In this document: piece after piece, positions 14,601 through 55,616 of the stretch
How the letters are laid out: each line of letters starts with the position of its first letter
How positions within the stretch are numbered: the first letter of the stretch is position 1
DNA from: Xiphias gladius
Lineage: Eukaryota; Chordata; Actinopteri; Istiophoriformes; Xiphiidae
Reading direction: 5' to 3'
DNA length: 64,000 nt
Assembly (NCBI RefSeq): GCF_016859285.1
Contig: NC_053416.1
Location: forward strand, 18,699,210 to 18,763,209
Notes under the pieces: generated by a model
Told to the model about the DNA's origin: nothing
The model's input: the letters and a program-made list of their open reading frames with translations, nothing else
Database searches by the model: none
Program-made: the position numbers and the translations under genes

Positions 14601-17035
14601 GTAGAATGATTCCTCTCAGCATCATACAACTGGTATGATTTATGTTTGCAAAGATTCTCGGTCCTCCAGTTCACAGGGTATCCAAAAGCACTAAGTCAAA
14701 GGCAACTGGACCTAACGCAAGTCATTATATTTGTTTGTATTTAATATTAATTAAGCCAGGTGAGGTGAGTCTGTGATTAAACTACTTTGTCATTCGGGTC
14801 TATTGGTAAGGACAACAGAACATGTGAGCGAGCACAAACAATGTTTAAAGCTGCATTATATAATCATTTTTCTTCTGGAGAGAGCAGAAAAGACTGTAAA
14901 CACAACACTGACATATTATCACCTTTAAAGTGTTAACAAATACTTGCCTATTTACACATCCAGCAGGCACAGGGCCACATTAGAATTTATTTTGAGTCGT
15001 GTTTCTGGCCACATGACAATTGTAAGTCTGATACTCACTCTCCTTTTGTTCTTTTTTGGTTTCAACAACTCCTGAGGGAATATCGGACAGTTAAGCTGCT
15101 ACACGCTCCGCTCACCAGCTAGTCGCCCATTTTTTCTGTCTGCTGTTGGGTGCTGGGCAGGTAGTGAAGAGTAGGGTCATCAGAGATTTTTTACTGAAAT
15201 CAGGTGCCTGCTGCTGGGTAAATGGGTAAATGAGAGGAGTGACTCTGAATCGAACAGTAAAGGTGCAGGAGAGAAAACAATGAGCTAAAAGATGCTAAAA
15301 TGTTCCTTAGAGAGTCAGGTGATAAATCTCTGGAAGTTTGTCGCTAAAGGTCAAACACCCATTATATTCAACATTGTACTGTGATCCAATGTTAGTGAAA
15401 AAATTTCGATTAGAGCAGCTTTTAAGTTTTTTCATCCACAGTTCAGCTTCATGTCATGACATGAACTGATTTTACAAAAAACACAGTAGTGAGCTAAGAT
15501 GAGGCATCACCTCTCAACTGAATTTGTGCTCTATTCATCTTTTCTCAGGGTTCCTGGAACAAGGTTTGCTGGTGAAGGACCATGCCAAGCTAAGAGACAG
15601 CTACGTCCGTACATTGCAGTTCAAGCTGGACGTGGTGTCCATCCTCCCCACTGACCTGGCCTACATCTCCACCGGCATCCACACACCACAGCTCAGGTTT
15701 AATCGTCTGCTGCGTTTCCCACGCATGTTTGAATTCTTTGACCGCACAGAGACACGCACCAACTACCCCAACATCTTCCGCATCTGCAACTTGGTACTTT
15801 ACATCCTGGTCATCATTCACTGGAATGCTTGCATCTACTACGCTATATCCAAGTCTTTGGGACTTGGATCAGACACTTGGGTGTTCCCAAACATCTCCAA
15901 ACCTGAGTATTCTTCCCTGACTCGGAGTTATGTCTACTGTCTGTACTGGTCGACTCTTACACTTACCACCATTGGAGAGATGCCTGCACCTGTGCGAGAT
16001 GAAGAGTACCTATTTGTGGTCTTTGACTTTCTTGTTGGGGTGCTGATCTTTGCCACAATTGTTGGAAATGTTGGCTCTATGATTGCCAACATGAATGCTA
16101 CCCGTGCTGAGTTTCAAGCCCGGATTGATGCCATCAAACACTACATGCACTTCCGCAAAGTCAGCAAAGAACTGGAGACGCGTGTCATTAAATGGTTTGA
16201 CTACCTCTGGACCAACAAGAAAACAGTAGATGAGCAGGAGGTGCTAAAGAACTTGCCCAACAAACTGCGGGCTGAGATTGCTATTAATGTACACCTCGAG
16301 ACCCTAAAGAAAGTGCGCATTTTTCAAGACTGTGAGGCAGGGCTGCTGGTGGAGCTCGTGCTCAAACTACGACCACAGGTCTTCAGTCCAGGGGACTACA
16401 TCTGCAGAAAAGGGGACATAGGTAAGGAGATGTATATCATTAAGGAGGGGAAGCTGGCTGTGGTGGCTGATGACGGGGTCACACAGTACGCTCTCCTCAC
16501 CGCCGGCAGCTGCTTCGGGGAAATCAGCATTCTGAACATAAAAGGCAGTAAAATGGGAAATCGCCGGACAGCCAACATCCGCAGCTTGGGCTACTCTGAT
16601 CTGTTCTGCCTCTCTAAGGATGACTTGATGGAGGCAGTGACCGAGTATCCGGATGCTAAGACTGTGCTAGAGGAGAGGGGCCGGGAGATCCTGATGAAGG
16701 AAGGTCTGTTGGATGAGAATGTAGAGAGTGGCGGGCTGCAGAAAGAGGACACAGAGGAGAAGGTGGAGAGGCTGGAGTCCTCTCTGGACACCCTTCAGAC
16801 TCGCTTTGCCCGTCTACTCAGCGAATACACACACACTCAGCAACGGCTGAAGCAGCGTATCACTCTATTGGAGCGGCAGCTGAATCAAATGGACTGCGGC
16901 GCAGGTGCAAACCATGACATGGATGCACACGCAGAGTTGGTCAGTGAAACAGACCCGGTGTCTGTTGCCCACACAGATGGATCTCCACAGCAGAATAATG
17001 TGCAAATAGAGGAAAAGAAAAGCCCAACATCATAA
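11674..17035 (+). CDS. cnga2: cyclic nucleotide-gated channel alpha 2 (olfactory-type CNG subunit)
   Basis: A cation channel opened by cytosolic cAMP/cGMP in the olfactory sensory cilium. Six phase-consistent exons: 11674-11774, 11901-12011, 13236-13412, 14116-14223, 14356-14462 and 15549-17035, giving 696 aa (mammalian CNGA2 is about 664). The N-terminus keeps DDTSSELQR and a basic-amphipathic calmodulin-type helix near residues 71-86 ([16 protein letters not shown]), then [16 protein letters not shown]1 starts about residue 145. S4 has [18 protein letters not shown]. The pore is [11 protein letters not shown] with selectivity Glu at about 345. The C-linker and cyclic-nucleotide domain show GEISIL (about 525) and RRTANIRS (about 541-547). 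A coiled-coil CLZ region spans about 606-648. The donor of exon 3 (AC then GTATGC) is weak but is the one that keeps phase. The first ATG follows an AG acceptor at about 11664, implying an upstream noncoding exon. CNGA2 rather than CNGA1/3 follows from the close match through C-linker, CNBD and CLZ. Confidence 0.95.
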
Positions 17036-33508: not shown

Positions 33509-34023
33509 CAAGCCAGGCGACTTAATCCTTCATCAGTCCTCAGAGCTCACTTTGGGTATGTTGCTGCCCTTTATGCTTATTGCTGAATTTCAAATCTAGC
33601 TGATAAACAATGCCACATAGCTTAGGACATACTGCAATCAGAGAAGACCAAGGGTGAACACATCTCTGACAAAAGCACAGTGATTGGTACTTATTTGAAT
33701 GCATTTGTGGATTTGAGACTTTCAGGAGAGGATGAAAACAAAAGAGCAAATGCTAAGGACTAGAGTTTCAAGTAAACAAATTAGTAAAAAATATTTTCAA
33801 GGATAAGGATGTAGATAAGGTGCTGGGATGATACAGACAACACGTAAAGAAAAAAAAAGCATTCTCAGTACACATTGCCATTTGTAAAGGGCATCTTGCA
33901 CAGAAGACAAAAGGACAAGGGTTGTGGTTTATGCTCATCTAAGAAAAAGCCCAGTTTTTTAGACTACAACAGACATTAGCCATAATGTGATACATATGTC
34001 AGACCTCTATTTCACAGGTAAGG

Positions 34024-36348
34024 ATGATGGAGCTTCAAATGGAGAAGAGGTTCCACAACTTAACCCTTGAGCAAGTCCAAGCTCTGGACAAGGTCTTGAC
34101 AGAGGTAATCCCCATCCATGGACGGGGAAATTTTCCCACACTGCAGGTGAGAGCAAAAGACATCATTCGTGTGGTGAAGGACCGGCTGGTCGAAAGAGAC
34201 ATCCAGGTGAAAGATATACGCCTTAATGGCGCAACTGCTAGCCATGTCCTGGTGAGAGAGAATGGCCTGGGTTACAGAGATTTAGACATCATATTTGGAG
34301 TGGAGCTGCCCAGGCAGGAGGACTTCCAGGTTATTAAGGAGGTGGTGCTGGGAAGCCTACGAGACCTCCTCCCTTGTGGAGTTAACAGACGGAAGATTAC
34401 CTGCCTGACAATGAAGGAAGCCTACGTGCAAAAGATGGTGAAAGTTTTCAATGAGCATGACAGATGGAGCCTCATCTCGCTGTCTAACAACAGAGCTAAA
34501 ACCTTGGGGCTCAGGTTTGTTAGTTCCCTTCGAAGACAGTTTGAGTTCAGTGTGGACTCCTTCCAAATAATATTAGACCGTATGCTTGAGTCCTACTGGG
34601 AGACTGAAAGGAAACAAGGAGGAAAGTTGCCATTGAATGCTGGGAATTTGGCTAAAAGAGACAATGAGGATGAAAACAAAGAGCAAGAGCAGCCAAGCGT
34701 TCCTCGAGATATCGAAGAGGATAATGAGAAAGACTTAGCCACGGCACCCGGCAGAGAAAGTCAGTGTCCGGATGAAGCAGTTTCTGTGCTCGAGAAAGAG
34801 CTACCACATGCAAAGATTGAGCATGTAGATGGAAAGCATGAGTCACAGCGGGTGTTAGAACCTGAGAGCAGTAACTTAGAGCAGGAGCAGGAGCAGGAGG
34901 AAGTGAACGGCATCGAGGATGTTCATTCAGAGGAGGACATTGTGTTTGAGCTGTGTGAAGAAACCGAAGAGAAAGGACAGTTTCACAGTGACTGCCCTTC
35001 AGTTTCATCCCCTAAAACTTTATTTACAGAAGTGAGGGATCCGCTGGTGACACAGGCATGTTTAAAGCTACAGAGTAATGACGAGCTATGTGAGTCACAA
35101 GCTTGCCAGCCAGTGTCTATGATGCATAGAGAAAAGTCAGCTCCACAGGAAATAGTCAATTGTGAAGAAATTGCTCAGTTCAAAGTAGACTCTGTAATCT
35201 GCAAGACTGAAAATACCTCAGACCCACAAGATTCACACCTTGAGTTCTCCTTCCCTCCTCCTGCCAAGAAAACTTGCAGCACATCACAGGACGTTGTACC
35301 AGACTATTGCCCCTCACCGAAATTACAAAGAAAAATGTCAAGGAAGATGATCAGTAAGCCTGAAAAATGGTCTCTACTGACTGATTTGTCAGATCTTACA
35401 ACACAGCTGTTTCCGCCCATAGAAATACCCAAGCCACTTCAGCCTAAGCCTCCTTTACTGGATAACACTCAAGGTCATTGCTCAAAAGTACCAGACTCGA
35501 AGTCGGAGAACTCTGAAGATCCAGATGCTCTAACAGTTCCCACATACAGTCCAGCCAGTACGCGTCAGGATGGGAGTGGCTCAAATGAAACTGTAGAACA
35601 AACTGTTAAGCCAAAACACTCAAAGAAGCCCCCTGATTCAGAGACTCAAAGCCACACGTGTGCAGTGAACATAGCCACACAGGCTGAGGTTGATGAGCAA
35701 AAACCTGAGCTGACAGACACTGTCCCAAACGGCTCTGGGTCAAGCTCATGGGCCAGGCCAGCAGGGGAGCCCACCATCACTGTAGAAGCAGAGTGCATGT
35801 ACGGAGACTTTGAACAGGCGATGGACCACCTTCGCAACCGCCTAATCGCCACCCACAACCCAGAGGAGATCCGGGGAGGGGGCCTGCTAAAATACAGCGA
35901 CCTGCTGGTGAGAAACTTCAGGCCAGCTAGCGAGACAGAGATCAAGTCCTTGGAGCGTTACATGTGCTCCCGCTTCTTCATCGACTTTCCTGATGTAAGT
36001 GAGCAGCAGCGGAAGATCGAGGCCTACCTGCAGTGCCATTTCATTGGCAACGAGGAGACAAGCAAGTACGACTACCTGATGACCCTGCGACGCGTGATAG
36101 ATGAAAGCACGGTGTGTTTGATGGGACATGAGAGGAGACAAACACTCAATATGATCACAGTCCTGGCCCTGAGGGTGTTGGGCGAGCAGAATGCCATCCC
36201 CAACACGGCCAACGTTACCTGCTTCTATCAGCCGGCTCCGTACATGACAGAGCCGATTTACAGCAGCTTCTTCATCACCCAGGCCCAGCCCCCACTCGTC
36301 TACCACCCCTACCCTCTACACGTCCACATGCAGACTGGCCTAGTGTAG
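34024..36348 (+). CDS. tent5d: terminal nucleotidyltransferase 5D (FAM46D-type) with a large internal insertion
   Basis: TENT5/FAM46 proteins are non-canonical poly(A) polymerases that extend mRNA tails; TENT5D is testis-enriched in mammals. The 774-codon frame is in one exon, starting 6 bases after the acceptor at 34017 (ATGATG). The catalytic half spans about residues 10-195: motif LNGATASHVL (69-70 Gly-Ala), GYRDLDIIF (Asp86, Asp88), and RQFEFSVDSF (Glu174). The second half runs from about 583 (ITVEAECMYGDFEQAMDHL, EEIRGGGLLKY, YMCSRFFIDFPD, STVCLMGHERRQTLNMIT, TCFYQPAPY). Between them lie about 385 residues rich in Glu, Ser and Pro with no recognised fold. Family members are normally about 390-440 aa, with a very short linker at this point. 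The usual Gly-Ser of the family motif is Gly-Ala here. TENT5D assignment rests on EYDYLMTL/YQPAPY-type similarity and the BRWD3 neighbour. Confidence 0.92.
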   Translation: MMELQMEKRFHNLTLEQVQALDKVLTEVIPIHGRGNFPTLQVRAKDIIRVVKDRLVERDIQVKDIRLNGATASHVLVRENGLGYRDLDIIFGVELPRQEDFQVIKEVVLGSLRDLLPCGVNRRKITCLTMKEAYVQKMVKVFNEHDRWSLISLSNNRAKTLGLRFVSSLRRQFEFSVDSFQIILDRMLESYWETERKQGGKLPLNAGNLAKRDNEDENKEQEQPSVPRDIEEDNEKDLATAPGRESQCPDEAVSVLEKELPHAKIEHVDGKHESQRVLEPESSNLEQEQEQEEVNGIEDVHSEEDIVFELCEETEEKGQFHSDCPSVSSPKTLFTEVRDPLVTQACLKLQSNDELCESQACQPVSMMHREKSAPQEIVNCEEIAQFKVDSVICKTENTSDPQDSHLEFSFPPPAKKTCSTSQDVVPDYCPSPKLQRKMSRKMISKPEKWSLLTDLSDLTTQLFPPIEIPKPLQPKPPLLDNTQGHCSKVPDSKSENSEDPDALTVPTYSPASTRQDGSGSNETVEQTVKPKHSKKPPDSETQSHTCAVNIATQAEVDEQKPELTDTVPNGSGSSSWARPAGEPTITVEAECMYGDFEQAMDHLRNRLIATHNPEEIRGGGLLKYSDLLVRNFRPASETEIKSLERYMCSRFFIDFPDVSEQQRKIEAYLQCHFIGNEETSKYDYLMTLRRVIDESTVCLMGHERRQTLNMITVLALRVLGEQNAIPNTANVTCFYQPAPYMTEPIYSSFFITQAQPPLVYHPYPLHVHMQTGLV
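34612..35769 (+). other. tent5d: acidic low-complexity insertion within TENT5D (about residues 197-582)
   Basis: A continuous open frame without splice-like borders or stops. It is rich in Glu/Asp (QEQEQEEVNG, EEDIVFELCEETEE) early and Ser/Pro/Lys later (PKPLQPKPP, SSSWARPAGEP). It contains a basic KKTCSTS and KLQRKMSRKM stretch. No domain is recognised. It probably forms a disordered loop projecting from the catalytic core. Confidence 0.8.
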
Positions 36349-37188: not shown

Positions 37189-37194
37189 AATAAA
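37189..37194 (+). terminator. tent5d: candidate tent5d polyadenylation signal
   Basis: AATAAA about 840 bases after the tent5d stop codon. A second AATAAA at 38223-38228 may end a longer transcript. Confidence 0.4.
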
Positions 37195-41200: not shown

Positions 41201-41640
41201 CAAAAACATTGACATCAGTGACCTTGAGTGATATACACGTCTCTCACTGTGGTAGTGAGTGAACTAGTGGCCACTAGAATAGGAGTTCTGCTGAATTACT
41301 CGTTGAGAAAAATCAAAAGACAGAAAAATAAAATATGAGCACCATTTTTTGGCATCACCCCGTCCTTCTTTGGTGACCAGGAGTAAAAGTTGTGGGAGGG
41401 ATGAAGAGGAGTAGATATAGTGTTTTAGTATTGGACATGAAACGCACAGGACGAGAAGGAGAGGAGCAATTCCGTGTCTTAAAAGCTCCTCCAGCGAGCA
41501 GTAAGGCCAAGGTGAGTTAGTCCAGTTGGAGAGGGTCCGTGTTGAACAGTAGCTCTGTCCACCAGGGATGAAAACTCCTTGGCAACATTTCATGAGCACC
41601 AGCTATCAGTTTGAGAGTCATAAGCAGTCTCAGGTAAAAA
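38260..41640. other. region between the convergent tent5d and brwd3 3' ends
   Basis: No coding exon is recognised. It holds an X-box-like ggtgccatggcaac (38627-38640), a 22-base A-run at 39639-39660 preceded by tttatt (AATAAA on the minus strand, 39631-39636, a candidate brwd3 poly(A) site) and A-runs near 40880-40930. Most of it is probably the long brwd3 3' UTR and spacer. Confidence 0.45.
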
Positions 41641-41645
41641 GAAAT

Positions 41646-41769
41646 CATATATATATCTATATATATATATATATATATCTATATATGTGTATATATATAT
41701 GTATGTATTTATATATATATCTATATATATACACACACACACATACACACACACACATATACATATATG

Positions 41770-41810
<41 letters not shown>

Positions 41811-41831
41811 TTATATTATATATACACACAC
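41646..41831. repeat. compound (AT)n/(AC)n microsatellite
   Basis: Alternating at, tc and ac dinucleotides with interruptions. Open frames reading Tyr-Ile or Thr-His through it are artefacts of the repeat. Confidence 0.9.
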
Positions 41832-41906
41832 TTGTACAAAAAGAAAGAAAAAAATCCCTGAAGTATTACTCATGTTTTGTATTGAGGTTTGAAAAAGGCC
41901 GACATG

Positions 41907-55616
<13,710 letters not shown>

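Follow-up and report, generated by a model that had tools for sequence, protein, structure and literature searches.

A TENT5D-type gene of Xiphias gladius with a long insertion between its lobes and two substituted active-site residues

TENT5 enzymes are described as lengthening the poly(A) tails of mRNAs translated at the endoplasmic reticulum (ER), and the loss of TENT5D as making men and male mice infertile (PMC8901658, PMC11193744). A 64,000-nucleotide stretch of Xiphias gladius DNA (contig NC_053416.1, positions 18,699,210 to 18,763,209, forward strand; hereafter the window, with positions counted from its first letter) carries a TENT5D-type gene with a 386-codon insertion between the two lobes of its product, which raises the question of what this segment is and what a protein built in this way could do. 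An initial annotation, made from the letters alone, had described an acidic insertion that splits the catalytic region and could regulate the enzyme. We found that the insertion is real, that a second TENT5D-type gene carries an even longer one at the same junction, and that the window copy has lost two active-site residues, the catalytic base among them. We hold with moderate confidence that the window gene is a catalytically dead or crippled TENT5D duplicate whose product would act as an ER-bound adaptor or competitor, a proposal in which the loss of activity, FNDC3 binding, role and timing are all presumed. The gene is laid out as follows.

34024..36348, + strand: complete TENT5D-type coding sequence, 774 residues, one coding exon (open frame, Pfam PF07984, Protein Data Bank (PDB) chain alignments and tree)
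34024..34611, + strand: nucleotidyltransferase (NTase) or N lobe, residues 1-196, D86 and D88 kept (Pfam, PDB alignment and residue mapping)
34612..35769, + strand: inter-lobe insertion of 386 codons, rich in Glu, Ser and Pro, strongly acidic in its first third and predicted to be disordered (composition and FoldIndex)
35770..36348, + strand: C-terminal helical (C) lobe and tail, keeping 85 of the 95 sites identical in TENT5A, B and C (PDB alignment)

Membership of the TENT5/FAM46 family was clear, with PF07984 (TENT5 nucleotidyltransferase) matching the window protein in two stretches (E 1.1e-149 for the whole protein). The better stretch pairs residues 13-192 with profile positions 1-180 of 321, and in a search of the genome the profile matched at 1-180 and 190-321, across both lobes. 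As the annotation had stated, the 774-residue frame is continuous. The insertion has no in-frame stop in 386 codons, against 21 and 34 in the two alternative forward frames, and in 2000 dinucleotide-preserving shuffles of the segment the best of three frames never held fewer than 6 stops (mean 15.5). GC content by codon position was 0.573/0.404/0.425 in the insertion and 0.37-0.42 at each position in the flanks, and the first-position excess is coding-like. Using approximate splice matrices, we sought donors at 34541-34760 and acceptors at 35561-35830, and detected no good in-frame pair across the junction (the best, 34760/35765, scored 4.7 and 0.4 bits). The same scan gave no acceptor above 6 bits within the coding sequence; the donor-like sites elsewhere in it include the strongest, at 34147 in the N lobe (11.2 bits), and one inside the insertion at 35032 (7.4 bits). 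Chance openness and a hidden intron are both disfavoured as explanations of the insertion.

PDB chains of TENT5A, B and C align to window residues up to 188-191 and again from 583-586, which places the annotated boundaries right to within a few codons. For TENT5A (8exe), the alignment runs through window residue 191 (chain residue 186) and resumes at 586 (chain residue 200); for TENT5C (6w36), it runs through chain residue 184 and resumes at 198. The lobes are thus 394 residues apart in the window protein, compared with 13 in both of these chains, a net insertion of about 381 residues in place of the short linker that the annotation had described for the family. The insertion does not, however, split the catalytic region as had been proposed. 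It lies at the boundary between the NTase and helical lobes, after the catalytic residues, and leaves the catalytic fold itself unsplit.

The insertion is rich in Glu (12.4%), Ser (10.6%) and Pro (9.6%). Of the 348 50-residue windows along the 397-residue inter-lobe stretch, 298 had a negative FoldIndex, and both lobes scored positive, so the segment looks disordered, as had been suspected. Its description as acidic suits only the first third (residues 197-320, with 37 D/E and 13 K/R); residues 321-450 carry 18 D/E and 16 K/R. The insertion showed no similarity to PDB chains at E values up to 10, and none of 16 short-motif consensus patterns exceeded composition shuffles. A single-sequence AlphaFold2 model was too poor for use (mean pLDDT 38.3, pTM 0.25). 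Searches for relatives among viral contigs (whole protein) and bacterial and archaeal genome contigs (C lobe only) found none, as expected, and Rfam gave no match at gathering thresholds.

To place the active site, N-lobe residues were mapped by ungapped alignment to the PDB row of TENT5A, whose catalytic residues include Gly122, Ser123, Asp139, Asp141 and the catalytic base Glu215, as given in PMC10075960. All 12 mapped TENT5A residues show the letter given in that source, so the register is right. The window protein has the same letter at 10 of these 12, including the cleft lysines K105, K131, K137 and K140. The counterparts of the five named residues are G69, A70, D86, D88 and G162, so that Gly and both Asp of the residue set of an active poly(A) polymerase are kept and Ser and Glu are lost.

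34231..34233, + strand: A70 (GCA) at TENT5A Ser123, in the catalytic site; TCC (Ser) in the sister gene (mapping)
34279..34287, + strand: D86-L87-D88, the metal/ATP aspartates (TENT5A Asp139 and Asp141), kept (mapping)
34507..34509, + strand: G162 (GGG) at TENT5A Glu215, the catalytic base; GAG (Glu) in the sister gene (mapping)

Both lost residues are kept in all nine other cores aligned (six from the same genome and three PDB chains). Outside this set, the TENT5C chains 6w3i and 8eqb have Q at the Glu site, which suggests an inactivating change engineered by crystallographers. NTase-fold enzymes are described as requiring three conserved acidic residues (PMC11646218). The annotation had suggested that the insertion could regulate enzyme activity; this is unlikely to be what matters most, since the window enzyme is itself probably inactive.

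A profile search of the genome contigs (690.8 Mb in 1298 contigs, with the window on contig C17) returned 14 TENT5 matches, which we grouped into seven genes, on C16, C24, C22 (two), C4, C17 (the window gene) and C23. Two of the 14 contain a stop and were taken as exon ends running into an intron. The gene on C23 (22040000-22049000, minus strand, 6573-2373 within that piece) has two coding exons that join in frame to encode 1244 residues. At the same junction it carries an 860-residue insertion that is free of stops, with 31 and 69 in the other forward frames, and that is Ser/Pro-rich, with 33 SP/TP sites, several in SPP/TPP-type repeats. The other five TENT5 genes found lack a long inter-lobe insertion, so it characterises the TENT5D-type pair and is not peculiar to the window gene. 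Third-position GC dips similarly along both genes, from 0.60 in the N lobe to 0.43 in the insertion and 0.75 in the C lobe for the window gene, and 0.69, 0.43 and 0.64 for C23.

In an IQ-TREE analysis (LG+G4) of ten cores, from the seven in-genome genes and the TENT5A, B and C chains, the window gene and C23 formed a pair with support of 100, apart from the TENT5A, B and C groups. C16 grouped with TENT5C (88). The TENT5B group (86) took in C24 and one of the two C22 genes, and the TENT5A group (98) the second C22 gene together with C4. The TENT5D-type identity proposed by the annotation is supported by this position. The branches of the pair are similar in length (0.228 for the window gene and 0.193 for C23), and the two proteins have similar C-terminal ends, both finishing in QTGLV. 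The pair most likely stems from an ancient duplication, for which the whole-genome duplication of teleosts is a candidate; two copies each of A, B and D would fit it. The C4 gene (15287500-15292500), the second TENT5A-type copy, has HGRWSFPTL in place of the otherwise shared HGRGNFPTL motif, a further sign that the N lobe can drift in duplicated TENT5 copies.

A neighbouring gene bears on the TENT5D label as well.

46199..46522, - strand: exon of a BRWD/PHIP-family gene (BRWD_AD domain), with the paralogue (BRWD1, BRWD3 or PHIP) ambiguous (Pfam match)

The human gene order is given as FAM46D, BRWD3, HMGN5, SH3BGRL (PMC6770680), and the presence of a BRWD-family gene beside the window gene supports TENT5D synteny. 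A PDB search with the exon at 46199-46522 gave no match. For C23, we submitted its own frame and six frames picked by eye from its flanks (ten 10-kb pieces) to Pfam, which for the flanks returned an SH3BGR-family gene within about 20 kb of C23, a Na/H exchanger (two frames) and a sub-cutoff 7tm match, with no match for two of the six. Because the SH3BGR family has several members, its proximity is weaker synteny support. The label of the window gene rests on exclusion from TENT5A, B and C together with the adjoining BRWD/PHIP-family gene.

Since an insertion at this junction occurs in the two TENT5D-type copies and in no other TENT5 gene found, the simplest history is that it was gained before the two copies split and then probably diverged beyond recognition. 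The idea that TENT5D carries the same insertion across vertebrates fails for human, whose protein has 389 residues (PMC13291444). Exonisation of an ancestral intron at the junction was considered and is unsupported: in each of the other six TENT5 genes found, a single open frame runs up to the junction and beyond it, leaving no intron at that point. The coding introns, whose positions were judged by eye on the frames and whose splice sites were read only for C23, fall at VQ|VV in C24 and in C22 at 13.6 Mb, at TLK|EAY in C22 at 7.4 Mb and in C4, and at FQ|VI in C23; C16 has none. Across the seven genes, introns therefore occupy three places in the N lobe and two genes are intronless, the window gene lacking the intron of C23. 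Short stretches that the two insertions appeared by eye to share (PHAKIE, EDENKEQ and a stretch resembling SPK..R.M.RK) had been selected post hoc and were set aside as no evidence.

Nonsynonymous (dN) and synonymous (dS) divergence between the window gene and C23 was estimated on gapless segments by the NG86 method. The C lobes share 125 of 145 residues (dN 0.094, dS ~1.95) and the N lobes 134 of 183 (dN 0.179, dS saturated). At sites identical in TENT5A, B and C, the window N lobe is changed at 23 of 115, while the same count gives 3/95 for TENT5A, 5/97 for TENT5B and 9/101 for TENT5C; the window gene is also an outgroup paralogue, which alone raises its number. The C lobe shows little excess (10/95 for the window, 7/92, 8/93 and 2/87 for TENT5A, B and C). 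Outside the lost active-site residues the core is conserved, and the combination expected of an NTase pseudoenzyme, loss of catalytic residues with a conserved core, is found at the level of sequence.

What could such a protein do? Human TENT5D is described as being recruited to the ER by FNDC3 proteins, which need the region from residue 288 on, and TENT5D with its NTase part deleted as still partly reaching FNDC3 and the ER without raising secretory cargo (PMC13291444). TENT5C D90/92A is reported still to suppress Plk4 (PMC7431843). Together, these two results make a non-catalytic TENT5 action credible. The corresponding region of the window protein is the following.

36040..36345, + strand: counterpart of human TENT5D 288-389, the FNDC3/ER-binding region (PMC13291444), mapped approximately, with the start taken from length offsets

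This region is present in the window protein and can be aligned with C23, and FNDC3 binding is putative. We propose that the window protein folds like TENT5D but with an NTase lobe that lacks the catalytic base and active-site Ser, and that its helical and C-terminal regions would reach the ER through FNDC3 proteins. Once there, it would not extend poly(A) tails; the disordered segment could instead serve as the recruiting arm of an adaptor, and/or the protein could compete with its active sister C23 for FNDC3 or mRNA. A more specific version, which we put forward tentatively and hold to be somewhat less probable than the general proposal, is that the duplicate became an ER-anchored pseudo-poly(A)-polymerase whose inter-lobe disordered segment recruits partners and which antagonises or scaffolds the active 1244-residue sister.

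The window protein resembles human and mouse TENT5D/FAM46D in both lobes, the DxD motif, the cleft lysines, the C-terminal helical region and a BRWD-family gene nearby (BRWD3 in human); it differs in its length of 774 residues, its net insertion and the loss of the active-site Glu and Ser. Mammalian TENT5D is described as an active poly(A) polymerase (PMC10075960, PMC8901658), unlike the window protein, which is predicted to be inactive. The C23 sister shares the long disordered insertion at the same junction, the TENT5D-type core and the C-terminal end, and differs in the size of its insertion, its 33 SP/TP sites, its complete set of named active-site residues and its one coding intron. TENT5A, B and C (8exe, 6jyj, 6w36) and their five in-genome genes are alike in fold family and two-lobe order, but have a short linker (13 residues in 8exe and 6w36) and keep all five named residues. 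Beyond the family, the NF45/NF90 DZF pseudo-nucleotidyltransferases are described as NTase-fold proteins of RNA metabolism without key catalytic residues (PMC11952958). They belong to another family with other partners, whereas the window copy retains DxD and its sister duplicate is free of the loss. Among the matches listed in the open-access literature, neither an inter-lobe insertion nor a catalytically dead natural TENT5 was described. If the more specific version is true, the TENT5 family would, as far as that literature goes, have its first described natural pseudoenzyme, and the duplicates would show a division of labour. One TENT5D with a full active site and one with a broken active site, each with a very large disordered insertion, form a natural separation-of-function experiment, from which one could learn which TENT5D roles depend on catalysis and what can be accommodated at the junction between the lobes.

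Several observations weigh against this picture of a non-catalytic duplicate with an inherited insertion. The window protein retains the DxD motif, and it may still have some activity or bind ATP and metal; the Glu and Ser changes could in principle be a peculiarity of the assembly or allele. At sites invariant in the other nine cores, the window core has 10 private changes in 153, while the others have 2-5 in 145-148. Four of the 10 fall either within the Ser motif or within GKN-E, the segment bearing the catalytic base. Given the excess of private changes, part of the signal may reflect general relaxation and not a new role. The Smith-Waterman score between the two insertions was 98, a value that 27 of 200 controls reached after full shuffling and 42 of 200 after local shuffling, so no common sequence origin is detectable. 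This leaves position and composition as the grounds for common descent, and the insertions may have grown independently at a permissive junction. The TENT5D label is by exclusion from TENT5A, B and C, in a tree without TENT5D of any other species, and the paralogue of the adjoining BRWD-family gene is ambiguous. Finally, the codon-usage score of the insertion, trained on both lobes and part of the CNGA2-like exon described below, is weak (-0.10 in frame, -0.22 and -0.49 in the other frames), with some 180-base windows scoring higher in another frame, which may reflect its unusual composition.

It is conceivable, but in our view unlikely, that the window protein is an active enzyme despite both changes, whose activity is tuned by the acidic, disordered insertion lying at the entrance to the cleft, for example by mimicking RNA or the Glu-rich contacts of BCCIP-alpha with cleft lysines. 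BCCIP-alpha is described as inhibiting FAM46 by entering the cleft and making acidic contacts with such lysines (PMC10075960), and the window protein keeps DxD and all four lysines and has a strongly acidic segment at residues 197-320. However, the catalytic base is replaced by Gly, neither of the 11-residue stretches that flank it contains an acidic residue, and both lost residues are kept in all six other in-genome TENT5 genes. C23 combines a long insertion with all the named residues, so a regulatory insertion suits C23 better than the window copy.

We also doubt that the gene is simply a decaying duplicate, in which selection is relaxed, the active site has gone, the insertion is neutral filler and the end point is a pseudogene. 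The window core does have the most private changes of the ten and the most changed shared sites in the N lobe, and third-position GC in its insertion (0.425) is near the overall GC of the window (0.40). Against this, the 774-codon frame is intact, a freely drifting stretch of 386 codons would be expected to gain stops, and although the split is old, dN lies well below dS. The C lobe keeps 85 of 95 shared sites, its 10 changes being close to the number seen in TENT5A and B, and the branches leading to the window gene and C23 are similar in length. An artefact of the gene model, in which the insertion or the residue changes stem from an intron (retained or cryptic) or from faulty assembly, is improbable: the weak codon-usage score, the windows favouring another frame and donor-like sites of 5-7 bits inside the insertion speak for it, while the want of a convincing in-frame splice pair across the junction, the lack of an intron there in the other six TENT5 genes and the 860-codon open insertion at the same junction of C23 speak against it.

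Other features lie around and beyond the non-catalytic TENT5D-type candidate.

34018..34023, + strand: possible 3' splice site of an intron in the 5' untranslated region, tttcacag|gtaagg, just upstream of the ATG (5.1 bits, approximate matrices)
37189..37194, + strand: AATAAA, possible polyadenylation signal (by eye)
15503..17032, + strand: large exon of a neighbouring CNGA2-like channel (best PDB match CNG alpha-2)

Comparison of the insertion with the rest of the window DNA gave a match of 22 bases that lies upstream of the gene, with E 0.003 for a search of the window, and three weaker matches at 42.3 kb. The former pairs 33728-33749 in the 5' flank with 34666-34686 in the insertion (15 bases exact, 95% over 22 columns) and is probably a chance repeat. 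Long TA/CA-type simple repeats, open in several frames, occur at 41553-41865 and 53643-54034.

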